Positions 13,847 through 61,261 of a stretch of DNA of 64,000 bases are shown here, piece by piece. Each line of letters starts with the position of its first letter. Position 1 is the first letter of the stretch. The stretch is from contig NZ_LJAK01000010.1 of assembly GCF_001420005.1 (NCBI RefSeq), positions 1 through 64,000 of the forward strand, written 5' to 3'. The notes under the pieces are model-generated. The model had not been told where the DNA came from and did no database searches. It saw only the letters and a program-made list of their open reading frames with translations. The position numbers and the translations under genes are program-made. Source of the stretch: Loktanella sp. 3ANDIMAR09 (GTDB taxonomy: Bacteria; Pseudomonadota; Alphaproteobacteria; Rhodobacterales; Rhodobacteraceae).

Positions 13847-13851
13847 CCCCC

Positions 13852-34876: not shown

Positions 34877-34888
34877 CGCGGGATTGCC

Positions 34889-36473: not shown

Positions 36474-36477
36474 GGGC

Positions 36478-38549: not shown

Positions 38550-38551
38550 CG

Positions 38552-39208: not shown

Positions 39209-39222
39209 TCATGCCCCCGCGA

Positions 39223-41186: not shown

Positions 41187-41445
41187 TGTCGCCCTCCGGG
41201 GTGCCAAGGGGCGTGAAGCTGCAATCCGGCGCGACGGGTGCCGTGGACGCAAGGAATGTGAAGCAGTTCGCCTGCGGCTCCCGGTACTGGGTGCAGGAGG
41301 CCAGCGCGCCGAGCGTAGTGAGAAGCAACAGTTTGGAGTTTCGAGATCGTTTTGAATCGTTTGTTCGCTGCCTCTCGCTTCGCTCGAACGCGAAAAACGA
41401 TGCAGGTTTCTTTGATGTATTCTCAAAACGCCATATACGGATCAT
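41176..41445 (-). CDS. VirB7-like lipoprotein
   Basis: An 89-residue protein whose start overlaps the virB4 stop (ATGA). The lipobox LASC (C51) marks it as a lipoprotein, with a short mature part of 39 residues. VirB7 lipoproteins of this size stabilise VirB9 in the outer membrane. The N-terminal region before the hydrophobic core is unusually long and polar (about 38 residues, rich in Arg, Ser and Lys), so the true start could be inside. Assignment is by position and lipobox. Confidence 0.65.
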   Translation of the reverse strand: MIRIWRFENTSKKPASFFAFERSERQRTNDSKRSRNSKLLLLTTLGALASCTQYREPQANCFTFLASTAPVAPDCSFTPLGTPEGDIEV

Positions 41446-43832
41446 GAAAGCCTCCAGAAGTCAGCGCGGTCGCGGTAATCGGGGCCGACGAGCGCCTCAC
41501 CTTTCTCCATGCCGCCGAGGATGGTGAGATTGGGCCCAAGGGCGCTCAGATCGGCATCGACGACGATCGAGCCCTGATCGTCACGGATGAGCGCCAAGCG
41601 GCTGTTGCTGCCGGTGTTGAGAAGGACGTCGAGCTCCTTCTCCGTGAGGTTCAGCATGGCGTAGTCCGCAGGCTGCGCGCGGATATTGGGCAGCAGGATC
41701 TGCGTCGGCACCGCCTCGACGATGGTCTTGCCGGTCCGGGTGCGCTCAAGCTGGCTTGCGTATTGCGTCATCATCACCGCGACCGTGTTCTGCTTGCGCG
41801 CGGTCACCAGCCAGTTCGACAGCCGTTCGGCGAAATACGCGTTGTCGAGGGCCTTCCAGGCCTCGTCGATCACGATGATGGTCGGGCGGCGATCCTCGAT
41901 CTCGCGCTCGACCCGGCGGAAAAGATAGGAGAGGACCGCCAGCCGTTCCTTGTCGGCCTCGCTGTCGAGAATGCCGGTCAGATCGAAGCCCACCACATCG
42001 CCTTTGAGCGAAAAAGTGTCCTCAAGGCTCTGCCCGAAGATCCAGCCATAGCGGCCGTCTTCGGTCCACTCGAGCAGGCGCTGGTGCAGATCGCCGCCAT
42101 CATCGGTGGACACAAAAAGCGATGCGAAATCCCGCCAGTTCCGCAGGGCCGGATTGGTGGCCTGGGCATTCTGGCGCACGACCTCCTGGATGCGGTTGGT
42201 CTGCGCCGGGGTCAGGGGCTTGTCGGCGCGGTAGAGCAGGGTTGTGAGCCAATCCGAGAGCCAGGCGGTGCCGCGCGCATCGGTCTCGGTCCAGAGCGGG
42301 TTGAGACCCGTGGGCTGGCCGGCGTTCAGGGAGGCGTAGCGCCCGCCATTGGCGCGGACCGCCATCTCCATGCCAAGACGGTAATCGAAGACGAAGATCC
42401 GCGCCCCTGCTCGACGGGCTTGGGTCATCAGGAAGGCCGACAACACCGATTTGCCCGACCCGGGCCGCCCCATGATCAGGGTATGCCCGCTGGTCGGTTC
42501 TTTGTCGGGCGAGCCTTGCTCGTGATAGGAGAACCGGTAGGCGCTCTGCTCCGGCGTGGGCAAATATGTGATGACCCGGCCCCAGGGGGTAAGTGCTGCG
42601 GGTTTTCCGAGCTGCGTCCGGTGGAAGGCCGCGAAATCCGCGAAGTTGCGATTGGTGACGGCGCTGGCGCGGACGCGCTTGGGCTGGTTGCCGGGATGCT
42701 GGCTGAGGTAATGCGCCTTGGCCGCGACCCGCTCGCCAATCATTTTCACGCCCTCGGTCGCGGCGGCGTTCACGATCTCGGCGCTGAGGGTTTGCAGTTC
42801 TTCGAGCGTGTCGCAAAAGAGCGTCACGACCATGTGATGCTCGCCGAAGCTTTGGCGCTTGGCCTCGAGATCATCGGCGGCGATGTCGAGGGCTTCCAGG
42901 AGCGAAAGGGCTGCGTCCTGGCTGGCCTGCATCTGGCGCTTTTGCCGCTTGATGCGGCCCGCCATGAGGTTCGAATTGATCGGCGTGAAGGAGTGCGTCA
43001 CGATCATGTCGACCGGCAGGTTCAGCATGTCGAACATGGTGCAGGAGGTGCCTTCCGAGTATTCTCCGATGGTGAAGCTCTTGCCGTAGCGGTGGCCCAC
43101 GACGCCCTCGGAAAGCTCGAAATGGTCGCCGTGAAACGTCACGCGGGTATTGGCGACGTTGAAGGACAAAAAGCCGTAGGTGTTGGCCGGGTAGAGCGGC
43201 AGCTCGGTGCCCGTGTTGAGCGCGCCCAGAAACCCCACCAACTCTCCCGATCCAGCTGACAGCAGGCGCGGCTTGAGCTCGGTAAGCCCCGAGAGGAAGA
43301 CGTTCACGGCCTCGCCGAGGCGCTGCAGGCGCTTGCGGGTCTCCTCCTTCAACCGATCGGGCGCGCTGCGGCTGAGAAACGGCAGTAGGCTTTTGGGGGG
43401 CGGGCGGTGAATGACGGTGAGCGTCAGTGTTTTGTCGCGCAGCCCACTGGTCTCGAGTTTCGCGCGCCAGCGCCGGTCCACCTCGCCCGCGAAGCTGTCC
43501 TCACGGATGAGGTCGAGATCAGGTTTGATGGCCTTGGAGACCTTGTGGACGTAATAGCTGAATTCCGGCCCGAGTTGCGCGACGATGCGGGCAAAAAGCG
43601 CCGTCACCTTGTCGAGATAGGCATCGTCCGTCGTGTAGCTGTTGATCCCCTCGAGCCGGATGCAGCGGAAGAGTTCGTTCACCCGTGTCCGCACGGTCTG
43701 GTCGTCAACGAGGCTCACATAGGGCAGCATATGCGCGAGGCGGGTCTCGCGCGCATACCAGTCCGGCGTCATTGTGCGGGGGTCGAGCGCAGCATCACGA
43801 GCTTCATCACGGGGCATAGCTGTCCCCGCCAT
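41442..43832 (-). CDS. virB4: VirB4 secretion ATPase
   Basis: A 796-residue ATPase of the VirB4/TrbE family: an N-terminal inner-membrane-associated domain (about 1-400) and a C-terminal AAA domain with Walker A GRPGSGKS (about 455) and Walker B IIVIDEAW (about 652). It is the largest energising protein of the channel and recruits VirB3. It overlaps virB3 by 26 bases. A second Met five codons in is an alternative start. Confidence 0.95.
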   Translation of the reverse strand: MAGTAMPRDEARDAALDPRTMTPDWYARETRLAHMLPYVSLVDDQTVRTRVNELFRCIRLEGINSYTTDDAYLDKVTALFARIVAQLGPEFSYYVHKVSKAIKPDLDLIREDSFAGEVDRRWRAKLETSGLRDKTLTLTVIHRPPPKSLLPFLSRSAPDRLKEETRKRLQRLGEAVNVFLSGLTELKPRLLSAGSGELVGFLGALNTGTELPLYPANTYGFLSFNVANTRVTFHGDHFELSEGVVGHRYGKSFTIGEYSEGTSCTMFDMLNLPVDMIVTHSFTPINSNLMAGRIKRQKRQMQASQDAALSLLEALDIAADDLEAKRQSFGEHHMVVTLFCDTLEELQTLSAEIVNAAATEGVKMIGERVAAKAHYLSQHPGNQPKRVRASAVTNRNFADFAAFHRTQLGKPAALTPWGRVITYLPTPEQSAYRFSYHEQGSPDKEPTSGHTLIMGRPGSGKSVLSAFLMTQARRAGARIFVFDYRLGMEMAVRANGGRYASLNAGQPTGLNPLWTETDARGTAWLSDWLTTLLYRADKPLTPAQTNRIQEVVRQNAQATNPALRNWRDFASLFVSTDDGGDLHQRLLEWTEDGRYGWIFGQSLEDTFSLKGDVVGFDLTGILDSEADKERLAVLSYLFRRVEREIEDRRPTIIVIDEAWKALDNAYFAERLSNWLVTARKQNTVAVMMTQYASQLERTRTGKTIVEAVPTQILLPNIRAQPADYAMLNLTEKELDVLLNTGSNSRLALIRDDQGSIVVDADLSALGPNLTILGGMEKGEALVGPDYRDRADFWRLS

Positions 43833-47792: not shown

Positions 47793-48041
47793 ATGGCAAG
47801 CATTACCATCCGGAACCTTGACGATGACGTGAAGCGCCGCCTTCGCATCCGTGCGGCTGAGCACGGCCGTTCGATGGAAGAGGAGGCGCGCGAGATCTTG
47901 CGCCATGTTGTCGGCGAAGCGAAGCCATCCCACGATCTTGCCGCGGCCATCCGCGCGCGGGTCGCGCCTCTGGGTGGCGTTGATCTCGACCTTCCGCAGC
48001 GTGAAGCCATGCGTGAACCGCCCGCGTTCGACCAGGCCTGA
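47793..48041 (+). CDS. fitA: FitA-like antitoxin
   Basis: An 82-residue protein with an N-terminal ribbon-helix-helix (ASITIRNLDDDVKRRLRIRA), the helix GRSMEEEAREILRHVV and a C-terminal toxin-binding tail. This is the FitA/StbC antitoxin layout. It should bind the operator at 47750-47766 and block the PIN toxin. The GTG start of the toxin follows four bases after its stop. Confidence 0.9.
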   Translation: MASITIRNLDDDVKRRLRIRAAEHGRSMEEEAREILRHVVGEAKPSHDLAAAIRARVAPLGGVDLDLPQREAMREPPAFDQA

Positions 48042-48044
48042 CGC

Positions 48045-48467
48045 GTGATCATCCTCGACACGAATGTCCTCTCTGAGCTGTTGCGCCCGGCTCCCGAGCC
48101 GAGGGTCGAGCAATGGCTGTCGGCGCAGGACGGGCTCAACGTCTATCTGACCTCGATATCGGAAGCGGAACTGCGCTACGGCCTCGCGATAATGGGAAAC
48201 GGCAAGCGGCGCGCCGCGCTGGTTGATGCAGTGGACAGCATCCTGCGTGAGGACCTTGCGGGGCGCATTCTGCCTTTCGACAGCGCCGCCGCGCAGTCCT
48301 ATGCCGCCATCTCCGCCGCACGACGGTCCGCCGGGCGAACGATCGCCCAGGCCGATTGCCAGATTGCCTCAATTGCCCACACCCGTGGTGCCTCCGTCGC
48401 CACGCGTAACACGCCTGACTTCGAGGGTTGCGATATCGACCTGATCAACCCCTGGACAGCCGAATGA
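48045..48467 (+). CDS. fitB: FitB/VapC PIN-domain toxin
   Basis: A 140-residue PIN ribonuclease: MIILDTNVLSELLRP with the first acid D5, SEAELRYGL, the Asp in TIAQADCQIA (about residue 104) and VATRNTPDFEGC at the C-terminus, as in FitB-type toxins. The stop overlaps the methyltransferase start as ATGA (48464-48467). That couples a toxin-antitoxin pair directly to a restriction-modification-like gene. Confidence 0.9.
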   Translation: MIILDTNVLSELLRPAPEPRVEQWLSAQDGLNVYLTSISEAELRYGLAIMGNGKRRAALVDAVDSILREDLAGRILPFDSAAAQSYAAISAARRSAGRTIAQADCQIASIAHTRGASVATRNTPDFEGCDIDLINPWTAE

Positions 48468-51196
48468 ACGCCGTTGAAATCGAACAAGCCGTTTCCGAAC
48501 TCGCCGAGCAGCCTTTTGACGCGGCCGAGTTTCCCTATGCCTTCCTCATGGCCTTCGGCAACAAGGACACCACCATCAAGCGCCTGCGTACCGGCGCGTC
48601 GAACAAGTCCGATATCGGCGGCATTCTGCAGACCAACAACATCCATCTTGCGACCTGCGCCCCGGGAGACATCGCGGCGACCCTGACCGCCCTTCGTGAT
48701 AGCCCCGCCACCACTCGTGCCAAGGCGAAGTTCATCCTCGCCACCGATGGCATCGACCTCGAAGCCGAGGATATCACCACCGGCGAAACCATCGCCTGCC
48801 GCTACACCGATTTCCCCGACCATTTCGGCTTCTTCCTGCCGCTCGCTGGCATCTCCACCGTCAAGCAGATCCGAGAGAGCGCCTTTGACATCCGCGCGAC
48901 CAGCCGCCTCAACCGGCTCTATGTCGAACTGATCAAGGACAACCCCGACTGGGGCAGCGCCGAAAAACGCCATGACATGAACCACTTTATGGCGCGGTTG
49001 ATCTTCTGCTTCTTCGCCGAAGACACCGATATCTTCGTCAGCGACAACCTGTTCACCGCCACCATCGACCAGATGGCCAACCGCGACGGCTCGAACACGC
49101 ACGAGGTCATCGGCGAAATCTTCCGTGCGATGAACACCGCCATCCCCAAACGGGCCGAGGCCAAGCTGCCCCGCTGGGCCGACACCTTTCCCTATGTGAA
49201 CGGTGGCCTCTTCTCGGGCAGCACCGATGTGCCGCGCTTTTCCAAGATCGCGCAGCGCTACCTGTCGCATATCGGCAGCCTCGACTGGACTCAGATCAAC
49301 CCCGACATTTTCGGCTCCATGATCCAGGCCGTCGCGGATGAGGAGGAACGCTCGGTCCTCGGCATGCACTACACCTCGGTGCCGAACATCCTGAAGGTGT
49401 TGAACCCGCTCTTCCTCGATGATCTGCGCACGGAACTGGAAGCTGCGGGCGACAACGCGCGCAAGCTGGCCAATCTGCGCGCCCGGATGGCCAAGATCCG
49501 CGTTTTCGATCCCGCCTGCGGGTCGGGCAACTTCCTTGTCATCGCCTACAAGGAAATGCGCGCACTGGAGTATGAGATCAACAAGCGCCGGGGCGAGCCG
49601 CAGCGCCGCACCGACATTCCCCTGACCAACTATCGCGGGATCGAGCTGCGCGACTTCTCGGCCGAGATCGCGCGGCTGGCGCTGATCATCGCGGAATACC
49701 AATGCGACGTGACCTATCGCGGCCAGAAAGAAGCGCTGGCCGAGTTCCTGCCGCTGGACGCGCAGAACTGGATCACCTGTGGCAACGCCCTGCGGCTGGA
49801 TTGGCTGTCGGTCTGCCCGCCCACGGGGACGGGGGTGAAGTTTCAGGCCGATGACCTGTTCATGCAGCCAGCGGATCAGGCGCAGATCGACTTCGCGAAC
49901 GAAGGGGGCGAGACCTATATTTGCGGGAACCCGCCCTATCTGGGCAGCCAGTGGCGAACAACAGAACAACAGGAAGACATGGAGCGAGTTTTTGCACCTA
50001 TTGCAAAGACCTATCGTGACTTAGACTATGTCGCCTGCTGGTTCGCAAAAGCAGTCCAGTATGGTAAATTCGTTGACTGCAAATCCGCCTTTGTGGCAAC
50101 GAAATCGGTCTGCCAAGGCATCCAAGTGGCGATGCTATGGCCATTCATTTTTTCGAGTGGAGCGGAGATCTTCTTCGCTCATCGACCATTCACTTGGCAG
50201 AACCTCGCGAAAGCAAACGCAGGCGTGACAGTTGTAATCGTTGGGCTTTCATTTGCCGTATCAGAGCGAAAACGTCTTTTCGACGCAGAAAATGAGATGA
50301 GCGTGCCAAATATTGGCCCTTACCTCATTCCTATGGCAAACACGATCGTCGCAAAATCGTCGCACTCTTTGAATGACCTCCCTGAAATGGACTATGGCAA
50401 CAAGCCTTCAGATGGTGGTGAGCTCATTTTAAGCAGAGAAGATGTGCAAGTACTTCTTGAGGATTTTCCGGAGGCTTCAGTACTTGTGAAGAAATACGTT
50501 GGTGCTCAGGAGTTTACCAAATCAAGTCATAGATATTGCTTATGGATTGAGAACGACCAAGTTGCACTTGCTAAGGCAATTCCTCCTATCCAGCGAAGAC
50601 TAGATTCCGTCCGAGAAATCCGCTTAAGTAGTAAAGGGCTACAGTCGCAGAGCAACGCTGATACACCACATCGTTTTGTGTATGCGCCCCACAGGCAGGG
50701 TAAAGCGCTAATCGTACCATCGATCACGTCGTCCAATAGAGAATACTTGCCGTGCGGTTTCATCGACGACTCAACTGTCGCATCTAACAAATGCGCAGTT
50801 GTGTACGACGCGGAGCCCTGGCTCTTGGGGATAGTGGCCAGCTCACTACATCTACAATGGATTGCTAGTGTTTGCGTTAGAATGAGGAACGATTTCAGCT
50901 ATTCCAACACTCTCGGCTGGAATACCTTTCCCGTCCCGAAACTGACCGAAAAGAACCGCGCCGACCTGACAGCGGCAGCGGAAGGCATCCTTCTGGCCCG
51001 CGAGGCGCATTTCCCAGCCACCATCGCCGACCTCTACGACCCCGAAAAAATGCCCGCCAATCTCCGCGCCGCCCATGACCACAACGACGAGGTGCTGGAA
51101 CGCATCTACATCGGCCGCCGCTTCCGCAACGACACCGAACGGCTGGAAAAACTGTTCGAGATGTATACGCGGATGACGACGAAGGTGAGCGCATGA
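48464..51196 (+). CDS. MmeI-like DNA adenine methyltransferase
   Basis: A 910-residue methyltransferase. The N-terminal and helical-spacer regions (1-340) follow the MmeI-like layout. The SAM-binding motif is VFDPACGSGNFLVI (about 347) and the catalytic motif CGNPPYLG (about 490); a target-recognition region and a short C-terminal domain follow. I see no D...ExK nuclease motif in the N-terminal domain, where MmeI carries one, so this looks like a methylase without its own nuclease. The segment from about 49960 to 50925 is clearly more AT-rich than the rest, as if the target-recognition part had been swapped. Start and stop both overlap neighbours (ATGA). Confidence 0.88.
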   Translation: MNAVEIEQAVSELAEQPFDAAEFPYAFLMAFGNKDTTIKRLRTGASNKSDIGGILQTNNIHLATCAPGDIAATLTALRDSPATTRAKAKFILATDGIDLEAEDITTGETIACRYTDFPDHFGFFLPLAGISTVKQIRESAFDIRATSRLNRLYVELIKDNPDWGSAEKRHDMNHFMARLIFCFFAEDTDIFVSDNLFTATIDQMANRDGSNTHEVIGEIFRAMNTAIPKRAEAKLPRWADTFPYVNGGLFSGSTDVPRFSKIAQRYLSHIGSLDWTQINPDIFGSMIQAVADEEERSVLGMHYTSVPNILKVLNPLFLDDLRTELEAAGDNARKLANLRARMAKIRVFDPACGSGNFLVIAYKEMRALEYEINKRRGEPQRRTDIPLTNYRGIELRDFSAEIARLALIIAEYQCDVTYRGQKEALAEFLPLDAQNWITCGNALRLDWLSVCPPTGTGVKFQADDLFMQPADQAQIDFANEGGETYICGNPPYLGSQWRTTEQQEDMERVFAPIAKTYRDLDYVACWFAKAVQYGKFVDCKSAFVATKSVCQGIQVAMLWPFIFSSGAEIFFAHRPFTWQNLAKANAGVTVVIVGLSFAVSERKRLFDAENEMSVPNIGPYLIPMANTIVAKSSHSLNDLPEMDYGNKPSDGGELILSREDVQVLLEDFPEASVLVKKYVGAQEFTKSSHRYCLWIENDQVALAKAIPPIQRRLDSVREIRLSSKGLQSQSNADTPHRFVYAPHRQGKALIVPSITSSNREYLPCGFIDDSTVASNKCAVVYDAEPWLLGIVASSLHLQWIASVCVRMRNDFSYSNTLGWNTFPVPKLTEKNRADLTAAAEGILLAREAHFPATIADLYDPEKMPANLRAAHDHNDEVLERIYIGRRFRNDTERLEKLFEMYTRMTTKVSA

Positions 51197-51720
51197 GCGG
51201 TCACCTCGCAGATCAGAAGCTGTTCGAGGAAATAGACGAGCGCTGGCAGCGCGCCGACGAATGGTCTTTCCCGAAGTCCATTTCGATAGGTTGGCCGATA
51301 GATGGAACACCCAAGGCCGAGGATTTCCGGCGCGTCAGTATCCAGTATTATCAGGCGTCGCGATCCATCTGCGAAATGGTGTCTGGCAACAAGATCGAGG
51401 ATTACGTTGCCAGTTATCCGGTCATCTACTTGTTTCGGCACTCAGTTGAACTGGCGTTGAAAGCGGTTGCCCTGCATCAGACTGGATCAAGCAAAGGCGG
51501 ACATGACCTCGCGACGCTTGCTGGTATGATCAAAGGGCTGCCAGAATGGGCGAAAGCCTGGATTGCCGAACTGCACCGATTGGACAAGAGGTCGACCGGG
51601 TTGCGTTACCCAGATACGGACGTTGCATTTTTTGAGGCGGGCTCACTGCTTTCTGACTGGCTGGAAAAGACTGAGAGGCTTCATTCGGCTTTGCTCGGGA
51701 TGAGCCAGACCCGAATTTGA
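51193..51720 (+). CDS. HEPN-like accessory protein
   Basis: A 175-residue helical protein. The central stretch YPVIYLFRHSVELALKAVAL resembles the FRHxxELxLKA motif of a HEPN-type family; GGHDLATLAGMI follows. I do not see a canonical RxxxxH nuclease site, so ribonuclease activity is uncertain. Its start overlaps the methyltransferase stop (ATGA), so it is made together with it. It could be a partner, an adaptor or a growth-arrest factor. Confidence 0.6.
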   Translation: MSGHLADQKLFEEIDERWQRADEWSFPKSISIGWPIDGTPKAEDFRRVSIQYYQASRSICEMVSGNKIEDYVASYPVIYLFRHSVELALKAVALHQTGSSKGGHDLATLAGMIKGLPEWAKAWIAELHRLDKRSTGLRYPDTDVAFFEAGSLLSDWLEKTERLHSALLGMSQTRI

Positions 51721-51733
51721 TGAAAGTGATTGT

Positions 51734-51871
51734 ATGACCAAAGGTATCCCCTCCGTCTCCGTCAAATACGCCGCCCACGGCAGTTCGACCAAGTCGAACG
51801 AGCTGGTTATGCACGCGATGCAGGAACGCGCCTATGAGAAGCACCGGTCGGGCGTGATGGTCAGAAAGTGA
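51734..51871 (+). pseudogene. Truncated 5' copy of the helicase gene
   Basis: A 45-codon ORF with the product MTKGIPSVSVKYAAHGSST (first 19 residues). Over its first 36 residues it matches the start of the full helicase at 53527 at 27 positions, then diverges and stops before the ATP-binding motif. It keeps the position expected for the helicase gene, right after the HEPN-like gene. It looks like the remnant of an original helicase displaced by the following AlbA-like gene and a divergent helicase copy. Confidence 0.75.
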
Positions 51872-51878
51872 ACATACA

Positions 51879-53351
51879 ATGACCCTTGACCCTGTCATGA
51901 GCGCGGAACGCACCCGCAGGCTGGTCGACGATCTGCGTGCCAAACCAGCGGAAACCACATGGATCGAGTTCAAGGAAAACAATGCCGACGGGCCGTTGAT
52001 CGGCAAGCTGATCTCTGCCTTGTCCAATGCTGCACGGCTGGCAGATCAGCACTATGCCTATGTGGTCTGGGGGGTGCGCGACGGCGATCATGCGGCTGTC
52101 GGCACGAGTTTCGAGCCGACCGTGAAAAAGGAGAAGGGGCAGCCGCTCGAACTGTGGGTGGCCAACCACCTCCAGCCGGGCATCGAGTTCCGGTTCGAAG
52201 AGGTCGATCATGACGGGCAGCGCCTGATCCTGCTGACTATCCCCGCCGCCGCAACCGCTCCGGTAGAGTTTGACCGGACCGCCTATTTGCGCATCGGCAG
52301 TGCCACGCCGCGCCTGTCCGACCATCCGGAACGCCTGCGTGCCCTCTGGGCCAAGTTGCAGCCCTACGCTTGGGAGACAGGGATAGCGGCCCAGTTCCTG
52401 ACCGGTGACGATGTTCTTGAGCGGCTGAATTACGCCAACTACTTCGATCTTACGGGCCAGCCCTTGCCGGATAACAGGCAGGGGATCTTCGACAGGCTAT
52501 TGGCGGATCGCCTGATCCAGAAAGATATAAGCGATCGTTGGAACATCACCAATCTAGGTGCAATCCTGTATGCCAAGAAACTTGCCGATTTCGGCCCCTC
52601 TGTGGAGCGCAAAGGCGTCCGTTTCGTGGCCTATGCCGGCACCGGACGTGCAGATGACGTGAGTCACCGCCAGGATGGCCAGCGCGGCTATGCAGCGGGT
52701 TTTCAGGGTTTGGTGGACTATATCGACGGTCTTCTGCCCCGCAACGAACTGATTGGTAAAGCGTTCCGCGAGGAGCGACCGCTTTACCCGTCGATAGCGA
52801 TCCGCGAATTGATCGCCAACGCATTGATCCACCAAGACATGACAATCACCGGCGCAGGACCACTCATCGAGTTGTTCAGTGATCGAATGGAGATCACGAA
52901 CCCGGGCGCCCCCTTGGTTAGCCCCGACCGGTTTTTGGACTCGCCGCCGCGTTCCCGAAATGAAGCCCTTGCGTCGTTGATGCGGCGGATGAAACTTTGC
53001 GAAGAACAAGGCACCGGCATCGACAAGGTGATCTCGGCGGTTGAGCTACACCAGTTGCCACCACCGGATTTCCGCATGGAGGGAGACGCCGTGCGCGTGG
53101 TTCTGTTTGCACCACGCCGATTTGCGGACATGACACCGGAAGAAGCCGTGCGAGCGTGTTACCAACATGCCGCGCTCAAATACGTAGGCGGTCAAAAGAT
53201 GACGAACGCGACACTTCGGGAGCGGCTTGGCATCGACGACCAGAACGCTGCGCAGGCATCGCGGGTTATTCGCGCAACGCTGGATGCTGATCTGATCCGT
53301 CCTGCGGATGCTGAACGCCCTCGGGCCGGATATGTCCCCTCATGGGCGTGA
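51879..53351 (+). CDS. AlbA/Schlafen-like ATP-binding protein
   Basis: A 490-residue protein. An N-terminal AlbA_2/Schlafen-type domain (TWIEFKENNADGPLIGKLISA, about 26-140), a middle winged region and a GHKL-like ATP-binding part (AIRELIANALIHQDMTITG, then RMEITNPGAPL, about 306-350) with EEQGTGIDKV follow, then a C-terminal HTH-like region. Such proteins are annotated as RecG-like or transcriptional regulators and occur in defence islands. It sits between the helicase stub and the full helicase and may have been inserted there. Confidence 0.8.
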   Translation: MTLDPVMSAERTRRLVDDLRAKPAETTWIEFKENNADGPLIGKLISALSNAARLADQHYAYVVWGVRDGDHAAVGTSFEPTVKKEKGQPLELWVANHLQPGIEFRFEEVDHDGQRLILLTIPAAATAPVEFDRTAYLRIGSATPRLSDHPERLRALWAKLQPYAWETGIAAQFLTGDDVLERLNYANYFDLTGQPLPDNRQGIFDRLLADRLIQKDISDRWNITNLGAILYAKKLADFGPSVERKGVRFVAYAGTGRADDVSHRQDGQRGYAAGFQGLVDYIDGLLPRNELIGKAFREERPLYPSIAIRELIANALIHQDMTITGAGPLIELFSDRMEITNPGAPLVSPDRFLDSPPRSRNEALASLMRRMKLCEEQGTGIDKVISAVELHQLPPPDFRMEGDAVRVVLFAPRRFADMTPEEAVRACYQHAALKYVGGQKMTNATLRERLGIDDQNAAQASRVIRATLDADLIRPADAERPRAGYVPSWA

Positions 53352-53363
53352 CGGGGACAACAT

Positions 53364-53480
53364 TTGATCGGGTTTTGATTGTGCGTATGTGGGCTAGAGG
53401 GCGTAAGTTGGAAAATACATATAAATCATACTGTTACGATAGGCAGGGTGCGGTATCGCTACTTGATCGGGTTTTGATTG
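53364..53480. repeat. Pair of 18-bp direct repeats before the helicase
   Basis: The sequence TTGATCGGGTTTTGATTG occurs at 53364-53381 and 53463-53480, perfectly conserved, with 81 bases between. The pair lies in the 175-base gap between the AlbA-like gene and the helicase, whose start is at 53527. It may mark a recombination joint or be a pair of operator sites. Confidence 0.7.
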
Positions 53481-53526
53481 CCTGCCCCAAAGCGAATGAT
53501 TCCGCGCCCCTCAGAAGGAAAACATC

Positions 53527-55575
53527 ATGACACAGCAGGTTCCTTCCGTCTCTGTCAATTACGCGGCCAATGGAAGCTCGACCAAATCGAACGAGCTTGG
53601 CATGCGCGAAATGCAGGAGGGTGCCTATGAGAAGCGGGGCGAGCAATACCTGCTGATCAAGTCGCCCCCGGCCTCGGGCAAGAGCCGCGCGCTGATGTTC
53701 ATCGCGCTCGACAAGCTGCACAATCAGGGCCTGCGCCAGGCCATCGTCGTGGTGCCGGAAAAATCCATCGGGTCCAGCTTCAACGACGAGCCGCTGAGCA
53801 AGTACGGCTTCTGGGCAGATTGGACCGTGCAACCGCGATGGAACCTATGCAACGCTCCCGGCGGGGATGACGGCAAGGTCGGCGCTGTCGGCAAGTTTCT
53901 GGCGAGCGACGACAAGATTCTGGTCTGCACCCACGCGACCTTTCGGTTCGCCGTGGACAAGTTCGGGATTGAAGCGTTTGATGATCGGCTCATCGCGGTA
54001 GACGAGTTTCACCACGTCTCTGCCAACCCTGATAACAAGCTGGGCACGCATCTGGGCGCACTGGTCGCGCGCGACAAGGTGCATCTGGTTGCGATGACCG
54101 GGTCCTATTTCCGCGGCGATGCCGAAGCCGTTCTGTCGCCCGAAGATGAGGCAAAGTTCGATACCTTCACCTATACCTACTATCAGCAGTTGAATGGTTA
54201 CAAATACCTCAAGACGCTCAACATCGGGTATTTCTTCTATTCCGGGTCCTATGCGGACGACATCCTCAAGGTTCTGGATCCGACCGAGAAGACAATCCTT
54301 CACATCCCGAACGTGAACTCGCGCGAAAGCACCAAGGACAAGCATCGCGAGGTCGAGCATATCATTGACGCCCTGGGCGATTGGCAGGGAGCGGATCCCA
54401 TCACAGGCTTTCAGCTGGTCAAGACGCCCGACGAGCGAGTCTTACGCATCGCCGATCTGGTGGACGACGAGCCATCCAAGCGTGACAAGGTTTCCGCCGC
54501 GCTGAAAGACTCCACGCAGAAGAACAACCGCGATCATGTCGACATCATCATTGCCCTGGGTATGGCGAAAGAAGGGTTCGATTGGATCTGGTGCGAACAC
54601 GCCCTGACGGTGGGCTATCGTGCCAGCCTGACGGAGATCGTGCAGATCATCGGCCGCGCCACCCGCGATGCCGAGGGCAAGACCCGAGCGCGGTTCACCA
54701 ACCTTATCGCGGAGCCCGACGCCGCGGCCGAAGCTGTGACCGAGGCAGTCAACGATACACTGAAGGCGATCGCTGCAAGCCTGCTGATGGAGCAGGTGCT
54801 GGCCCCACGTTTCAACTTCACGCCCAAGACCGTGAAAAGTGGCCCTGTCGAAGGGTTCGATTACGGCGAGGGCGGCTATGACCCCAACAAAGAGAACGTT
54901 GGCTTCAGCGAGGCCAGCGGACAGTTCCAGATCGAAATCAAAGGCCTGGTCGAACCCAAGAGCAAGGAAGCCAAGCGCATCTGCCAAGAGGACCTCAATG
55001 AGGTGATCACAGCTTTCGTTCAGGACAAGACTACGATCGAACGGGGTCTCTTCGACGAAGAGCTGGTGCCGGAGGAACTGACGCAGGTTCGCATGGGCAA
55101 GATTGTCGGTGCCAGGTTCCCAGAGCTAGATGCAGAGGATCAGGAAGCGGTGCGCCAACACGCAGTTGCTGCGCTGAACCTGACCCAAAAGGCGAAAGAG
55201 ATCGCGCTGTCGAACCGCGATGACACAGAAACAACCGGCAATACCGCCTTGATCGACGGGGTGCGCAAATTCGCAATGGACGTGCGCGAACTCGACATCG
55301 ATCTGATTGATCGCATCAATCCGTTCGGCGAAGCCTACTCGATTCTGGCAAAGACGATGAGCGAGGAAAGCCTTCGGCAGGTTCAGGCCGTCATCTCGGC
55401 GAAAAAGGTGCAACTGTCACCGGACGAGGCGCGAGATCTGGCGAAACGCGCCGTCAAGTTCAAGCAGGAGCGGGGCCGTCTGCCTTCCATCACATCGCCT
55501 GATCCGTGGGAGAAGAAAATGGCCGAAGGCGTCGCCTATCTCGCGCGCATGAAGCAGGAGGCTACCAATGGCTAA
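53527..55575 (+). CDS. SF2 DEAD/DEAH-type helicase
   Basis: A 682-residue helicase: Walker A SPPASGKS (residues 46-53), VVVPEKSIG, CTHATFRF, the DExH box VDEFHHVSA (about 158) and the C-terminal motif VI-like QIIGRATRD (about 375), followed by a long helical tail. It resembles the translocation subunit of type III-like restriction or related defence systems. The last codons overlap the GIY-YIG gene by eight bases. The N-terminal 36 residues are duplicated upstream in the 51734 stub. Confidence 0.85.
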   Translation: MTQQVPSVSVNYAANGSSTKSNELGMREMQEGAYEKRGEQYLLIKSPPASGKSRALMFIALDKLHNQGLRQAIVVVPEKSIGSSFNDEPLSKYGFWADWTVQPRWNLCNAPGGDDGKVGAVGKFLASDDKILVCTHATFRFAVDKFGIEAFDDRLIAVDEFHHVSANPDNKLGTHLGALVARDKVHLVAMTGSYFRGDAEAVLSPEDEAKFDTFTYTYYQQLNGYKYLKTLNIGYFFYSGSYADDILKVLDPTEKTILHIPNVNSRESTKDKHREVEHIIDALGDWQGADPITGFQLVKTPDERVLRIADLVDDEPSKRDKVSAALKDSTQKNNRDHVDIIIALGMAKEGFDWIWCEHALTVGYRASLTEIVQIIGRATRDAEGKTRARFTNLIAEPDAAAEAVTEAVNDTLKAIAASLLMEQVLAPRFNFTPKTVKSGPVEGFDYGEGGYDPNKENVGFSEASGQFQIEIKGLVEPKSKEAKRICQEDLNEVITAFVQDKTTIERGLFDEELVPEELTQVRMGKIVGARFPELDAEDQEAVRQHAVAALNLTQKAKEIALSNRDDTETTGNTALIDGVRKFAMDVRELDIDLIDRINPFGEAYSILAKTMSEESLRQVQAVISAKKVQLSPDEARDLAKRAVKFKQERGRLPSITSPDPWEKKMAEGVAYLARMKQEATNG

Positions 55576-56773
55576 GGGTTTCACCGACGAAGACGACGCC
55601 CTCCTTGCTGAGCTTGGCGTCGAGGTCGAGGTCAAGAAGCAGCTCAGCCGCACACCACGCGAAGAACGCATCATCGCAGGTTTTGAGGAAATCTTGCGAT
55701 TTGCAGATGAGCATGGCCGGCCTCCCCAGCACGGGGAGGATCGTGATATCTTTGAACGCCTCTACGCCGTGCGTCTTGATCAGATCCGCGACTTGCAGGA
55801 ATGCCGCGACCTCCTTGCCCCACTCGACGAGCAGGGCCTCCTAGCAAACACTCCTGCGCCCTCAGCATCAGACTCCGATGACCTCGATGACGATGCCCTC
55901 CTCGCCGAACTGGGCGTGGAAGTTGCTAAATCACCTCTCACGGAATTGAAGCATGTCCGGTCAACAGCCGAGAAAAAGGCCGCCGATGAAGTCGCAAACC
56001 GCGAGAAATGCAAGGATTTCGCGACGTTCAAACCCTTGTTCGAGCAGGTCCAGAAAGAACTGGATAGCGGCTTGCGCGAAACTCGCCCGTTCGAGATGAA
56101 AGCCGAGATCGAGAAGGGACGCTTCTTCATCGTCAGCGGTCAAAAGGCCTATGTCGCCGACAAGGGCGAGACCATCACCAACGAGCAAGGTCGCACGGAT
56201 GCGCGTCTGCGGGTGATTTTCGACAACGGGACCGAGAGCAACATGCTGATGCGCTCGCTTCAGCGCGCGTTGAACAAGGACGACGCCGGACGGCGGATCA
56301 CCGATCCTTCGGCAGGGCCACTTTTTTCCGATCAGACACTCGACGGTGATGAGGCGAGCGGGATCATTTATGTTCTTCGCAGCAAATCCGATCATCCACT
56401 CGTCACGGCAAACCGGGAACTCGTGCATAAGATCGGCGTCACCAATATGAGCGTTAATAAGCGGATTGCTGGCGCGCACTTACAGCCGACGTTTCTGATG
56501 GCGAACGTCGAGGTGGTTGCGACTTATGAACTCTACAACATCAACCGAACAAAACTGGAGAACCTGATCCATCGCATTTTCGAACCCGCACGGCTCGAGA
56601 TCGAAATCATGGATCGCTTTGGAAGGCCTGTGGTCCCACGAGAATGGTTCCTCGTACCCATCTTCGTCATCAACGACGCTGTTGAAAAGATCAGGGATGG
56701 CACAATAACGAGCTATCGCTATGATCCCCGCGCTGCCGAACTCAAACGGATTTCGGGGGAGATGCCGCAATAG
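55568..56773 (+). CDS. GIY-YIG nuclease (T5orf172-like) with a tandem N-terminal repeat
   Basis: A 401-residue protein. The C-terminal GIY-YIG domain has GIIYVL (265-270), KIGVT (288-292), R299 and the catalytic Glu E331 (LENLIH), in the T5orf172 style. The N-terminal part carries the block DDALLAELGVEV twice (residues 9-20 and 108-119). As the partner of the helicase it is the likely DNA-cutting subunit of the island. The overlap of eight bases with the helicase stop argues for a complex. Confidence 0.85.
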   Translation: MAKGFTDEDDALLAELGVEVEVKKQLSRTPREERIIAGFEEILRFADEHGRPPQHGEDRDIFERLYAVRLDQIRDLQECRDLLAPLDEQGLLANTPAPSASDSDDLDDDALLAELGVEVAKSPLTELKHVRSTAEKKAADEVANREKCKDFATFKPLFEQVQKELDSGLRETRPFEMKAEIEKGRFFIVSGQKAYVADKGETITNEQGRTDARLRVIFDNGTESNMLMRSLQRALNKDDAGRRITDPSAGPLFSDQTLDGDEASGIIYVLRSKSDHPLVTANRELVHKIGVTNMSVNKRIAGAHLQPTFLMANVEVVATYELYNINRTKLENLIHRIFEPARLEIEIMDRFGRPVVPREWFLVPIFVINDAVEKIRDGTITSYRYDPRAAELKRISGEMPQ

Positions 56774-57064: not shown

Positions 57065-58216
57065 TCACTGCCTCAATCGCTTGAGCGCATCTGCAATTTC
57101 CTGCAATATAGGTGGCCCTAGGTCAGCCGCAAGCTCTTGTGCCCGTTCATACGCCGTAATTGCAGCCTCTGCCTCTCCAAGAACAGAATAGGCATTCCCC
57201 AAACGCATCCATCCATCAAGATCATCAGGCTCGTTTTCAAGGCGGTCAGCCAAACGCGCAACCATCGAAAGAATAAACGCCTGCCTGTCATCATCTGACA
57301 TGTCTTGCGCGTTCGCAATGTCATCCGCTGTGGGGCCCGGTGCATTCACCGTTGGCGCAAAGTCTGCCAATGAAAGTGGTGTCTTCCCAATCCCGTCACC
57401 TATGCGGTTTGCCTCTGCCACAAGGCTTTCCATCCAAGGATAAAAGCCATCCGCCGCATCCAGGCGTTCTATCAGCAGGTCATAGCCGCGCAATGACTCG
57501 CCCTTTTGCGACAGTGCGACAGCCTTGTAATAGACGCTAGCCGGGTTGCCAGGGTTCATTGCTATTGCGCGATCAATTGCAGCTTCGGCTGGTGGTGTGA
57601 CCACGCCTTGCTCTGCGTAGATCAGTGCCTCCGCCAACATGGAAAAAACGGCTGAGTCCGCTTCAGGGCGCTCAGAAACAACCTTGAACGCTTCAGCCGC
57701 ATCTTCAAACCGGCCCATGCGAGTGTAGGTTTGCCCCAAAAGCATCCAACCTTCGCTTGGCCCACCATCTGGATCACTCACAAGCCTCTCGTAGAGCTGG
57801 GACGATAAATCGGCGATTTGGGCGGCCTCTTCCCGTTCGGCGGTACGGTCAGCAAAGGCTAGGCTATCGATCTCGGGTGATCCCATCGTCATGTAATAGC
57901 CTCCCGCAAACAATGGCACGAAGACAGCGCCAAGGATCAAAACGATGCGGCCGCCGGTGTTCGTCGCAATTCTGCGTGTTTCCGCCTTGCGTGACTGCAT
58001 CAAAATGCGCCGCTTGATCTCTTGCTCGGCAGCTTTTGCCTCCGCTTCTGAGATAACACCGCGATCCAGATCGCGCTTCACCTCTTCCAACTGATCCAAA
58101 AGCACCGCTGGTGTGGTATCTTCGGGAATGGCGGCGATTTGAAACCTCCCGCGCAGTGGCATCGCCATCAGCGTCAGCGCGAACAGGGAAAGAAGTAGGA
58201 AGAACAGCCAGATCAT
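57065..58216 (-). CDS. ccmI: CcmI cytochrome c maturation protein
   Basis: A 383-residue protein. N-terminal membrane segments (about 1-25 and 90-110) with VISEAEAKAAEQEIKRRIL between them are followed by a TPR-rich periplasmic region (AEGWMLLGQTYTRMGRFEDAAEA-type repeats). CcmI presents apocytochrome c to the haem ligase CcmF-CcmH. Its start overlaps the ccmH stop (ATGA). It is the last gene of the minus-strand ccm operon. Confidence 0.88.
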   Translation of the reverse strand: MIWLFFLLLSLFALTLMAMPLRGRFQIAAIPEDTTPAVLLDQLEEVKRDLDRGVISEAEAKAAEQEIKRRILMQSRKAETRRIATNTGGRIVLILGAVFVPLFAGGYYMTMGSPEIDSLAFADRTAEREEAAQIADLSSQLYERLVSDPDGGPSEGWMLLGQTYTRMGRFEDAAEAFKVVSERPEADSAVFSMLAEALIYAEQGVVTPPAEAAIDRAIAMNPGNPASVYYKAVALSQKGESLRGYDLLIERLDAADGFYPWMESLVAEANRIGDGIGKTPLSLADFAPTVNAPGPTADDIANAQDMSDDDRQAFILSMVARLADRLENEPDDLDGWMRLGNAYSVLGEAEAAITAYERAQELAADLGPPILQEIADALKRLRQ

Positions 58217-58683
58217 GTTTTTTCACTCACTTTGTTCTGCTCGATGAACTGCGCTACTTCTGCTTCTTCAGCAGCAGACAGGCCTGTCACCGTCTTCCGT
58301 CTTCGGCTGGCTGACAGCACCACCCATCCAATCAGAAGAGAGGCCAAAGCAAGTATGAAGGGTGCGAGCCACAGTGCTGCCGTTGAGACATTGAACGGAG
58401 GGCGCATCAAAACATAGTCACCATATCGCGCATGGACGTAGTCGACTACTTCGACATCACTATCTCCCGCAATCAGACGCTCTCTGACTAGGATGCGCAG
58501 GTCACGGGCGACACCGGCGTTTGAGCTATCAATGTCCTGGTTCTGGCAGACGACGCAGCGCAGTTCTTTCGATATCTCCCGCGCGCGTTGCTCTAGCACT
58601 GGATCTTGCAATATCTCATCCGGCTCGACCGCAAAAAGGGTTGCGGGCAAGACCAGAAACAACACAACAGCAAGGTGTCTCAT
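58213..58683 (-). CDS. ccmH: CcmH thiol-redox protein
   Basis: A 156-residue protein with a signal peptide, the CVVCQNQ active-site motif (C43 and C46) and a C-terminal membrane helix (LWLAPFILALASLLIGW). It reduces the CxxCH haem-binding cysteines of apocytochrome c. It overlaps ccmG (ATGA) and ccmI. Confidence 0.93.
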   Translation of the reverse strand: MRHLAVVLFLVLPATLFAVEPDEILQDPVLEQRAREISKELRCVVCQNQDIDSSNAGVARDLRILVRERLIAGDSDVEVVDYVHARYGDYVLMRPPFNVSTAALWLAPFILALASLLIGWVVLSASRRRKTVTGLSAAEEAEVAQFIEQNKVSEKT

Positions 58684-59246
58684 CCACCTACCCTTCTTTC
58701 CAAGGCACCGGCTTGAACCAGTGCTTCTCTAAACTTTCCGACGGCATCATCACCGACCACAGGACCAACATATCGGTAGAGAACGGTGCCATCCGCTCCG
58801 ACGATAAATGTCTCAGGGACACCGGAAATGCCCCACTCGATCCCGGCTCTGCCTGTGCTGTCAGCCCCGATCTTTTCGTAAGGGTTGCCGAGTTCGGCCA
58901 GCCAGCGCGTTGCATCCTCGGGCTTGTCTTTGTAATTGATCCCGAAAAGACGCTGCCCCTCGCTTTCGACAAGCCGGGTCAGGACCGCATGTTCGGCACG
59001 GCATGGCACACACCAAGAGGCAAAGACATTCACGATCACAGGGCCCGGATTGCCAACAAGATCGGTCCGCGCAAAGCTTGGTGTCGCTAATCCCTCGACG
59101 TCCATGAGCGTGAACTCTGGCGCCTGTTGGGAAATCAAGACTGAGGGGATATCATTCGGATCCCGGTCTGGATCGAGGCCCCACAAGAAGAACCCTCCAA
59201 AGACAACCGCGATCAGTAGCGGAATAAGGGCAAGAGCACGTGTCAT
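58680..59246 (-). CDS. ccmG: CcmG/DsbE thioredoxin-like protein
   Basis: A 188-residue membrane-anchored thioredoxin-fold protein with WCVPC (C79 and C82), GVPETFIVGADG and an N-terminal anchor (ALALIPLLIAVVFGGFF). It supplies electrons to CcmH during haem attachment. It starts two bases after the ccmF stop. Confidence 0.93.
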   Translation of the reverse strand: MTRALALIPLLIAVVFGGFFLWGLDPDRDPNDIPSVLISQQAPEFTLMDVEGLATPSFARTDLVGNPGPVIVNVFASWCVPCRAEHAVLTRLVESEGQRLFGINYKDKPEDATRWLAELGNPYEKIGADSTGRAGIEWGISGVPETFIVGADGTVLYRYVGPVVGDDAVGKFREALVQAGALERRVGG

Positions 59247-59248
59247 CC

Positions 59249-61261
59249 TTATTCCGCCGGAACCTGCGCCGAATCTGATATCTTCTTGGCCGCACCGCGA
59301 CGCGGCGCACCAACGCGCAACCGCCGGTCCGAGAGAGATAGCCCACCGCCCAAAACCAGCATGGCTGATCCAATCCAGATGAAATTGACCAAAGGCTCGT
59401 AAAGAATGCGCAGTGTCAACGCGCCCCCTGCCCCGGCTTCTTCTGATGCTGGTCTGGCGATAGAAGCGTAAAGGTCACCAGCCATCGTCGAGCGAATAGC
59501 GCTTTCAGTCGTGTTGCTTTCCGCCACTGGGTAGTAGCGGCTTTCCGGAAAGAGCTCTGTTACAAAAACCCCGTCTTGTCTAACGGTTAGTTTGCCGCGA
59601 TCGGCGACATAGTTTGGTCCACGAACCCGTTCAAGGCCCTCGAATGTGACATCAAATCCTGCAATTTCGATCTGGCTGCCCGGCTGAACAAAGACAATCT
59701 CCTCAGTCTTCCAAACGCTTGAGCCGATGAAGCCAAACATAGCGACGGCTAGTCCGGTATGTGCGAGTGTCATTCCATAGACTGATCTAGGAAGGTTGGC
59801 GGCACGCCTGCGCGACTCTGTGAACGGCACCTCAAACAGTTTAATCCGCACTGTCCACTCTTTGAGGGTCGCCATGAAAAGCCAAATGGCGAGAAGGATG
59901 GATAAATAGCCAAGCACCGGACCGCCGCGCACGATGTACCAGACCGCGAGTGTCGCCAGAACTGTCAGAACCGCGACAATCCGCAGCCTTTGAAGTACAC
60001 CCGGTAGGTCTGCACGTTTCCAAGACAGGAACGGCCCGATGCCCATGACGAAAACCAACGGCAGCATAATCGGTATGAAGGCTGCATTGAAAAATGGCGG
60101 CCCGACAGACAGCTTTTGGCCGTCCGTCAACGCTTCATAAAACAGCGGATAAAGTGTTCCAAACAGGACGATGCCTGTCGCTGTCGCAAGGATCAGGTTG
60201 TTGATGAGCAAACCTGCCTCTCGGCTGATCGGTTTGAAGATGCCACCTGGTTCCATGACGGGTGCACGCCACGCAAAGAGTGCTAAAGAGCCACCGATCG
60301 ACACCGCCAGAAGACCCAGAATGTATAAGCCACGTTCAGGATCGACTGCAAAAGCATGAACAGAAGTCAGCAGACCTGACCGAACAATAAATGTACCAAG
60401 TAGCGAGAGCGAAAATGTCAGGATCGCCAGCAGGATCGTCCAGCTTTTGAAGGCGTCCCGCTTTTCTGTGACGATGGCAGAATGCAAAAGCGCCGTGCCC
60501 ATCAACCAAGGCATGAAGCTGACATTCTCAACCGGGTCCCAGAACCACCATCCGCCCCAACCAAGTTCATAGTAGGCCCACCAGGACCCTAGCGCGATGC
60601 CAGCGGTAAGGCTGAGCCAAGCCGCGAGCGTCCAAGGGCGGACCCATCTTGCCCAAGCCGCATCTACCCGGCCTTCTATTAAGGCCGCGACGGCGAAGGA
60701 AAACACGATGGAGAAGCCGACATACCCAAAATAAAGCAGTGGCGGATGCATCGCCAAGCCGACGTCTTGAAGCAATGGGTTGAGGTCTTGCCCGTCTACC
60801 GGGGGTGGGAAAACACGGTCAAACGGGTTCGATGTGAACAGCATGAAGGTGATGAAACCAACGCTGATCCATGCCTGCACAGACAGGGTCCGAGCCTTTA
60901 GACTATCCGGGATGTTGGAGCCAAAAACAGAAACAGCGGCACCAAAAACTGTCAAAATTAACACCCAAAGGAGCAACGACCCCTCGTGACTGCCCCAGGA
61001 CCCTGCGACCTTGAACAGCATGGGTTTGAGCGAATGCGAGTTTTCAACGACGTTCTTGACCGTAAAATCGCTCGTCACGAAAGCCTGCAGCAGAGCAAAG
61101 AACGCGATGGATGCAAAAAAGACCTGTCCTAGCGATGACCACTTTGCGGATTGCATCCATAAAATATTGCCACGGGCGGCACCTAGAATTGGCAATACAC
61201 TTTGAACAATCGCCATGGCAAGTGCAAGCGCCAGCGCGAAGTGACCGATCTCTGGTGTCAT
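59249..61261 (-). CDS. ccmF: CcmF haem-ligase subunit
   Basis: A 670-residue polytopic membrane protein with the WWD haem-handling motif (WGGWWFWDPVENVSFMPW), a large periplasmic C-terminal region and a normal length for the family. It attaches haem to apocytochrome c with CcmH and CcmI. It is the first gene of the operon. The usual partners ccmA, B, C, D and E are absent from the window, so this is either a partial duplicate or a split locus. Confidence 0.93.
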   Translation of the reverse strand: MTPEIGHFALALALAMAIVQSVLPILGAARGNILWMQSAKWSSLGQVFFASIAFFALLQAFVTSDFTVKNVVENSHSLKPMLFKVAGSWGSHEGSLLLWVLILTVFGAAVSVFGSNIPDSLKARTLSVQAWISVGFITFMLFTSNPFDRVFPPPVDGQDLNPLLQDVGLAMHPPLLYFGYVGFSIVFSFAVAALIEGRVDAAWARWVRPWTLAAWLSLTAGIALGSWWAYYELGWGGWWFWDPVENVSFMPWLMGTALLHSAIVTEKRDAFKSWTILLAILTFSLSLLGTFIVRSGLLTSVHAFAVDPERGLYILGLLAVSIGGSLALFAWRAPVMEPGGIFKPISREAGLLINNLILATATGIVLFGTLYPLFYEALTDGQKLSVGPPFFNAAFIPIMLPLVFVMGIGPFLSWKRADLPGVLQRLRIVAVLTVLATLAVWYIVRGGPVLGYLSILLAIWLFMATLKEWTVRIKLFEVPFTESRRRAANLPRSVYGMTLAHTGLAVAMFGFIGSSVWKTEEIVFVQPGSQIEIAGFDVTFEGLERVRGPNYVADRGKLTVRQDGVFVTELFPESRYYPVAESNTTESAIRSTMAGDLYASIARPASEEAGAGGALTLRILYEPLVNFIWIGSAMLVLGGGLSLSDRRLRVGAPRRGAAKKISDSAQVPAE

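Follow-up and report, generated by a model that had tools for sequence, protein, structure and literature searches.

What kind of system is encoded by the seven co-directional genes at positions 47793 to 56773, on the forward strand of a 64,000-nt stretch of Loktanella sp. 3ANDIMAR09 DNA (contig NZ_LJAK01000010.1; hereafter the window)? The original prediction, made from the sequence alone, described a FitA-FitB pair, an MmeI-like methyltransferase, a HEPN gene, an AlbA/Schlafen-like ATPase gene, a superfamily 2 (SF2) helicase and a GIY-YIG nuclease, and treated them as one defense system of unrecognized composition. All seven frames are open and intact at the predicted coordinates, and the domain calls hold in a Pfam search of all seven proteins. 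The combination, however, is not without precedent. Judged by protein families and gene order, its core trio is the DnmA(YeeA)-YeeB-YeeC cluster known from Bacillus subtilis (PMC9973331, PMC7261158); the HEPN and AlbA/HATPase genes, like FitAB, are accessory to this core. The explanation that we favor, with a probability of roughly 0.62, is a three-subunit restriction-modification (R-M) operon of the MmeI lineage that carries exchangeable second-line effectors. Gene content and order, intact catalytic motifs, an insertion slot and the exchange of cassettes come directly from the comparisons described below; from these we infer restriction by the core and a second-line role for its cargo.

The methyltransferase gene (48464–51196) encodes a DnmA/YeeA-type, MmeI-like N6-adenine enzyme with five MmeI Pfam domains, and its length of 910 aa is as originally given. 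The claim that modification, motor and nuclease functions reside on separate chains also stands, and only the methyltransferase scores strongly among the single-protein PADLOC models (type IIG, 933 bits). In NCBIfam, no model exceeded its cut-off for any protein of the locus. The spacer, methyltransferase, target-recognition domain (TRD) and C-terminal domains align with MmeI across most of the chain, and the match to the MmeI structure 5hr4 (E value 3.6e-141) starts at MmeI residue 107. Both motif I (DPACGSGNF) and an NPPY motif are present, and DPACGSGNF and NPP are conserved among relatives. The difference from MmeI lies in the region that would contain the nuclease. The catalytic residues of the MmeI PD-(D/E)XK nuclease are D70, E80 and K82, according to the excerpted text of PMC4833311. 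No counterpart of these residues was found in the window protein; cutting would fall to separate chains. When its N-terminal 179 residues were searched alone against the PDB, only chance matches were returned, none of them to MmeI. We also scanned 118 methyltransferase N termini for the pattern D-x7-14-[EQD]xK, leaving out 10 that have no anchor motif. The pattern is absent from 93 of the remaining 108, including that of the window locus, and occurs at scattered positions in the other 15, in a scan that had no residue-level alignment of an MmeI N terminus as its control. We rejected a single-chain MmeI-type IIG/IIL enzyme as an identity because the methyltransferase chain has no recognizable PD-(D/E)XK nuclease.

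The other two core proteins retain their catalytic motifs. The YeeB-type SF2 helicase/translocase (53527–55575; 682 aa) matches ResIII at 23.5 bits, with DEAD just below its cut-off, and its GKS (Walker A), DEFH and QIIGR-TR (motif VI) sequences are invariant in 11 of 11 aligned members. The YeeC-type nuclease (55568–56773; 401 aa), a T5orf172/MUG113 GIY-YIG protein in Pfam, carries residues Y268, G290, R299 and E331, which are invariant in all 145 sequences of at least 350 aa. One plasmid record labels its helicase “restriction/modification system component YeeB.” Close helicase relatives bear the RefSeq name “pseudomurein-binding repeat-containing protein,” which looks misleading for this helicase and was probably assigned because of a 28-residue match to PF09373 (27.5 bits) near the C terminus. 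A second MUG113 GIY-YIG-like match in the host genome (G000 contig C18:6969–7157, 26.7 bits) lies away from the operon.

In excerpts of PMC7261158 and PMC9973331, B. subtilis DnmA (YeeA) is described as an MmeI homologue without the endonuclease motif, whose gene is followed by those for a helicase (YeeB) and a T5orf172 protein (YeeC). The same excerpts credit Morgan and colleagues with the proposal that the trio carries out Type I-like restriction. The excerpted part of PMC9973331 also mentions an “Uncharacterized protein family” as a possible additional member of the cluster. The window locus shares with the described cluster the three gene families, their order and strand, and a methyltransferase without the nuclease motif. 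Whereas the helicase and nuclease genes occupy downstream positions 1 and 2 in the excerpted description, two cargo genes lie between methyltransferase and helicase in the window locus, which also has FitAB ahead and exchanges its TRD and cargo as cassettes. At the family level, the link is strengthened by a B. subtilis control genome, in which both MmeI_Mtase and MUG113 were detected. If the core acts as proposed, the methyltransferase would read an asymmetric site through its TRD and put m6A on one strand, as its motifs and the habits of the family suggest. On unmethylated DNA it would recruit YeeB as the motor and YeeC as the GIY-YIG nuclease, a step consistent with the gene order, the intact motifs and the published proposal. 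Together these two proteins would stand in for the lost MmeI nuclease domain in a Type I-like manner.

The positions at which other genes enter this operon were determined from a census of 152 helicase loci, consisting of the window locus and 151 others (duplicates L007, L013 and L017 and the window pieces L001 and L002 were dropped). A nuclease match is present in 148 of these loci and begins no more than 30 nt after the helicase in 147; the gap in the remaining locus, L156, is 294 nt. The four loci without a nuclease match either end at the helicase (L145) or have shortened helicase frames (L138, L151 and L154). A whole or partial methyltransferase frame lies upstream in 140 loci, and in the other 12 the helicase starts no more than 1,078 nt from the locus end. 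The gap between methyltransferase and helicase is at most 30 nt in 60 of the 140 loci, 31 to 150 nt in six and more than 150 nt in 74. Insertions longer than 30 nt are therefore found at 80 of 140 methyltransferase-helicase junctions versus 1 of 148 helicase-nuclease junctions. The finding that 60 slots are empty indicates that cargo is not needed for the core.

Because the census is biased towards close relatives, we repeated the slot test on an even phylum draw, using 20 of its 23 loci (those of the host genome and G055 were already in the census, and G843 is partial). The nuclease follows the helicase within 12 nt in 20 of 20 loci, and a methyltransferase match lies upstream in 19 (L182 has none, L180 has a short remnant only and L190 has its methyltransferase in two pieces). 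Gaps of more than 150 nt separate methyltransferase and helicase in 8 of 19 loci, or 7 of 18 without L180, versus 0 of 20 at the helicase-nuclease junction. Six of the eight filled slots carry families already met in the census.

The boundaries of the slot often coincide with coupling overlaps. In 48 of the 74 filled slots, the methyltransferase stop forms a 4-nt overlap with the start of a frame that lies in the slot and is 60 aa or longer, versus 15 of 146 cases after the nuclease gene. At the downstream edge, 34 of 74 filled slots overlap an in-frame helicase start, and in 32 of 60 empty slots the methyltransferase stop overlaps the helicase start directly. These counts suggest that cargo enters at a coupling junction and often preserves the coupling. 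On a FastTree helicase tree of 137 of the 140 loci, made without shuffles, at least 33 changes between empty and filled states are needed, and each of seven cargo families requires 4 to 8 changes; we use these values only as a sign of patchiness. Nine cargo genes that open inside the methyltransferase gene, all from families already seen, are not in the tree counts.

A comparison among close operons reveals how the slot and the recognition domain are exchanged. Over positions 46501 (the start of the query) to 56813, the window and a Profundibacterium locus (L037) are 92 to 98% identical save for two blocks, at 49940–50889 and 51198–51733. The first block corresponds to methyltransferase residues ~493 to 808, an exchangeable specificity cassette that begins just past NPPY and stops where the TRD ends. 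It gives no DNA alignment to four loci, each of which is 92 to 98% identical to the window on both flanks. The second block is the HEPN gene, which is replaced in L037 by a gene for a 294-aa protein; this block is bounded by the methyltransferase stop on one side and by the beginning of a helicase remnant on the other. Among 11 close loci (L004, L034, L035, L037, L167–L172 and L014, the last without a first cargo), amino acid identity to the window is 87 to 99% for the N-terminal half of the methyltransferase and 81 to 98% for its C terminus, and falls to 37 to 45% in the TRD block. Seven of these loci carry the 294-aa cargo (88–100% identical) with five different TRD types, and L034 has a TRD that is 99% identical to those of L037 and L171 yet holds a 137-aa cargo instead. 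L035, L169 and L170 share one cargo. Thus, recognition and first cargo reassort separately, and this independence suggests that the cargo need not match the DNA sequence that is recognized.

The helicase remnant records a further rearrangement. The gap between the HEPN and AlbA genes is 158 nt and contains, at 51734–51871, 45 codons of a dead helicase 5′ end that the original prediction overlooked. It shares 81% DNA identity over 94 nt with the 5′ end of the operon's own helicase. Of the 78 slots that exceed 60 nt, five contain such a remnant (those of the window, L034, L037, L004 and L035), always directly before AlbA; the other six AlbA slots lack it. Remnant translations match that of the window at only 47 to 78% identity, even where the AlbA proteins of the two loci are 98% identical, which is what a dead fragment should show. 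The AlbA of L171 is 98.2% identical to that of the window. The remnant appears to be a scar of an older helicase that stayed behind when an AlbA-helicase-nuclease unit was joined to the end of another cargo.

What occupies the slot? Members of 13 recurrent families are present in 61 of the 74 filled slots, and 12 slots have two such families. The families are AlbA/HATPase (11 cases), a 137-aa protein (c137; 11), RhuM (7), 294-aa, 260-aa and 277-aa proteins (c294, c260 and c277; 6 each), a PLD-like protein (5), a second GIY/T5orf172-like protein (5), PDDEXK_4 (4), YhcG/DUF1016 (4), CcdA (3), a 206-aa protein (3) and GmrSD_N (2). The 62-aa frame in the AlbA-helicase spacer, the CcdA partner and a 94–101-aa pair (L071 and L113) were left out of this list. 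DarT, DUF6088-AbiEii, FRG and DUF3800, CoiA-like and toxin-antitoxin genes occur as single cases. The cargo families are nuclease-, toxin- or antitoxin-like, or have no assigned function. Visual inspection of the 137-aa family shows GADF...VQLKGR, which we interpret as a PD-(D/E)XK-like pattern; Pfam has no match for it. The predicted structure of the 294-aa cargo (pLDDT 73) has no Foldseek match at E ≤ 0.001. Among the 50 listed of its 126 matches, the highest probabilities belong to the HEPN structures 2q00 (0.66) and 1o3u (0.63), with E values of 1.4 to 1.7, which is at most a hint that this cargo is HEPN-like. The PLD cargo is weak in Pfam (14.5 bits, cut-off 27) and matched no PADLOC model, though phospholipase D family is the annotation of five out of seven plasmid relatives. 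A relative with 35% identity lies in a DISARM operon, after the DNA methyltransferase gene and before drmA, with three genes between. Three loci show further arrangements: L021 (4492–8143) carries DarT-like, GmrSD_N-family and PDDEXK_4-family genes in one slot, Synechococcus p11801_2 (L027 45–5874) has addiction and RelE/ParE-type genes within its slot, and on Acetobacter pAC258-26 (L003 3137–9067) a Fic gene lies directly ahead of the methyltransferase gene.

In the window locus, the first slot position is held by the HEPN-domain gene (51193–51720; 175 aa; PF05168, 33.5 bits) and the second by the AlbA/HATPase gene (51879–53351; 490 aa), whose product combines SLFN_AlbA_2 and HATPase_c_4 in Pfam. 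The window HEPN protein was found in none of the other 151 helicase loci, and its own genome was the one match among 385 class genomes; two plasmid records hold relatives. The better of these relatives, on Salipiger abyssi pPABY8, lies directly before the restriction endonuclease gene within a Type I hsd operon. Of the candidate residues, H83, H104, R138 and Y139 are shared between these two sequences. An HEPN protein is also encoded by L167, and both proteins exceed the PF05168 cut-off without a mutual BLAST match. A single-sequence structure model of the window protein had a mean pLDDT of 52 and was not used.

Precedents exist for effector genes inside R-M operons. According to excerpts of PMC3710099 and PMC12707154, T4 Stp frees PrrC in the EcoprrI operon by blocking the restriction enzyme, and a review of HEPN proteins proposes the same release scheme for R-M-linked HEPN genes, in whose neighborhoods RhuM and DOC-type genes also occur. 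The window locus resembles EcoprrI and these HEPN-, RhuM- or DOC-linked operons in having effector genes inside an R-M operon. It differs in its R-M core, and holding and release of its cargo by that core would be speculative. By this analogy, the HEPN and AlbA/HATPase cargo would most likely form a second line of defense when restriction is overwhelmed or blocked. Comparison of loci shows that the slot at the methyltransferase-motor junction receives toxin- or nuclease-like genes, often ATGA-coupled and swapped as whole genes. FitAB upstream is probably an addiction pair. The recovery of defense candidates embedded within other systems, Hma among them, has been described as “guilt-by-embedding” (HEC, PDC) in the excerpted text of PMC12988326. 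The RhuM cargo of relatives matches one such candidate, PDC-S05, in PADLOC; there was no PADLOC match for one representative each of c137, c260, c277, c294 and PLD.

The core is widespread. Helicase matches at E ≤ 1e-40 were found in 24 of 295 family genomes and 23 of 398 genomes of the phylum draw, and the helicase also occurs in 264 of 72,556 plasmid records and 43 viral-collection contigs. From the scan of genome contigs, the best 80 of at least 557 relatives were used. Among 11 diverse plasmid loci examined, nine are annotated as methyltransferase-helicase-nuclease, and L028 (at the start of its record) and L032 have no annotated methyltransferase. One place covers at least 80% of the helicase in 153 of the 264 plasmid records. 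Pseudosulfitobacter pseudonitzschiae SC1-28 plasmid P2 (L167) keeps the methyltransferase, its different HEPN gene and AlbA, but similarity to the window breaks off after ~109 codons of the helicase; the adjacent annotation includes neither a helicase nor a nuclease gene, and recombinase and transposase genes lie downstream. Six sibling records show the same 109-residue helicase match.

Several observations weigh against an R-M operon with second-line effectors. According to excerpts of PMC9973331 and PMC7261158, dnmA-yeeB-yeeC of B. subtilis restricted neither a plasmid nor three phages and was called a relic. Support from phage sensitivity comes only from deletions in V. crassostreae, which raised sensitivity to some phages as quoted in the excerpted text of PMC9973331. 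Helicase decay is common, given that 111 of the 264 plasmid records hold less than 80% of the helicase in one place, and the 60 empty slots have already been mentioned. No clear RX4-6H motif is common to the window HEPN protein and its Salipiger relative; some members of the family have D in place of H, as stated in an excerpt of PMC3710099. Census loci are partly akin, and the near-identical L132 and L133 were both counted, so Fisher values on cargo families overstate independence. Five relatives of the 260-aa and 294-aa cargoes are not associated with R-M genes (two neighbor AbiE), and two AlbA relatives that were examined in the expectation of Type I loci stand alone, away from R-M genes. 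The case for sharing of the PLD cargo with DISARM is weaker because DISARM has its own PLD protein, DrmC. Finally, we infer rather than observe both the action of the cargo in defense and its contact with the core.

These points bear on three other explanations. The methyltransferase might be kept for epigenetic regulation, or for addiction together with FitAB, while helicase, nuclease and cargo lie idle. The negative B. subtilis results, the partial plasmid helicases and the truncation on Pseudosulfitobacter plasmid P2 would all be consistent with such a relic, but the frames are intact, the invariant nuclease residues and helicase motifs point to selection, and the V. crassostreae deletions have a phenotype; we consider this unlikely. 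Equally doubtful is a neutral landing site, functionally unconnected to restriction, at which any passing gene persists because insertions are tolerated by the ATGA coupling. Plain toxin-antitoxin genes in some slots and cargo relatives that lie away from R-M genes fit this idea. It does not, however, predict the contrast between the two junctions, the recurrence of 13 families, or the occurrence of relatives of two cargo types inside Type I or DISARM operons; nor does it predict the Pfam results for 20 slot representatives, of which eight had no match and the other 12 matched no metabolic family. The third explanation, closest to the original prediction, is one integrated seven-gene system in which HEPN, the AlbA-ATPase and FitAB are required subunits. 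The genes are indeed co-directional with short gaps, and the order FitAB, methyltransferase, cargo, AlbA, helicase, nuclease recurs on five Roseobacter-group plasmids examined. Yet a single one of the 152 helicase loci has the HEPN gene, 11 of the 140 loci with a methyltransferase have the AlbA gene, and cargo is absent from the empty slots and replaced between otherwise near-identical operons, all of which makes a fixed system very improbable. The original prediction had stated that its novelty would fall if the genes were found apart. The HEPN and AlbA counts lower it for the accessory genes, whereas the methyltransferase, helicase and nuclease remain together.

A broader extension of the R-M operon with second-line effectors is possible, although we advance it only tentatively. 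DnmA-YeeBC may be a general platform whose methyltransferase-motor junction accepts interchangeable effectors; any effector present there would be set off by the core or by failure of the core, independent of the DNA sequence read. On this view, the c137, c260, c277, c294 and PLD families would represent new effector classes coupled to restriction, partly shared with Type I and DISARM operons.

Named systems fit the locus poorly. DISARM class 1 comprises DrmMI with DrmA, DrmB, DrmC and DrmD; the methyltransferase scores 90.7 bits to DrmMI versus 933 to PDLC03598, and the other seven proteins have no Drm match. BREX combines PglX with PglZ and BrxC/BrxL partners; NCBIfam PglX models reach 22 to 25 bits versus cut-offs of 400 to 900, and no other BREX model is among the matches listed in PADLOC and NCBIfam (for the methyltransferase, 25 of 30 matches). 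Type III R-M systems consist of Mod and Res subunits, and Res carries helicase and nuclease in one chain. No Mod-like match is among those listed here, the nuclease is a separate GIY-YIG protein, and the ResIII score of the helicase compares with a cut-off of 22.5 bits. Dnd/Pbe was rejected in that the only PADLOC matches of the helicase are to PbeA, at 21 and 18 bits. Hma comprises a helicase, an m5C methyltransferase (HmaB) and an ATPase (HmaA/HmaB/HmaC), as given in an excerpt of PMC8565338; no Hma model is among the PADLOC matches listed, and the window methyltransferase has an m6A-type motif.

The remaining features of the locus concern its layout and setting. The FitA-like ribbon-helix-helix antitoxin gene (47793–48041; PF22513, 75.6 bits) has an RBS-like AGGAGG upstream and is followed after 3 nt by the gene for a FitB/VapC-like PIN-domain toxin (48045–48467; GTG start; PF01850, 55.3 bits). 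The predicted tight linkage from FitA to HEPN is borne out, since FitB-methyltransferase and methyltransferase-HEPN form ATGA overlaps. The last three genes were said to overlap each other, which is true of helicase and nuclease (8 nt) but not of AlbA and helicase, which are separated by 175 nt (53352–53526). This spacer contains an 18-nt perfect direct repeat (53364–53381 and 53463–53480, spanning 53364–53480 on the forward strand), for which 0 of 100 shuffles gave two matches; the original prediction had overlooked the repeat as well. Scans for promoters and terminators were uninformative (7 promoter-like sites versus 3.4 expected, and 7 terminator-like sites versus 9.4 expected). Genes for a relaxase, a TraG-type coupling protein and VirB/Trb proteins (27305–43832) precede the operon, and cytochrome c maturation-like genes (57065–61261), read from open reading frames by eye, come directly after it. 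This setting suggests an integrated conjugative element with its right edge near 56.8 to 57.0 kb. At 13711–18126 lies a gene for a 1471-aa helicase of the Strawberry-notch type (AAA_34 + Helicase_C_4), whose N terminus gives a sub-threshold methyltransferase match; helicases of this type are known from conjugative elements.

The core and the embedding of defense genes have both been published, and what looks new is the architecture, in which a fixed helicase-nuclease pair is joined to an insertion slot for cargo at the methyltransferase-helicase junction. No title on cargo in this operon appears among literature listings that are incomplete and leave most subscription papers and bioRxiv outside their scope, and the slot may already be described elsewhere; the closest statement is the one in PMC9973331 on a possible further cluster member. 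The core is widespread, yet its best-studied member has been judged a relic, and the slot makes a specific case for testing cargo-bearing loci anew. Its content provides a short list of uncharacterized effector candidates. Moreover, natural operons that combine one TRD with two cargoes, or one cargo with five TRDs, offer a ready design for asking whether embedded effectors sense the core or act alone.

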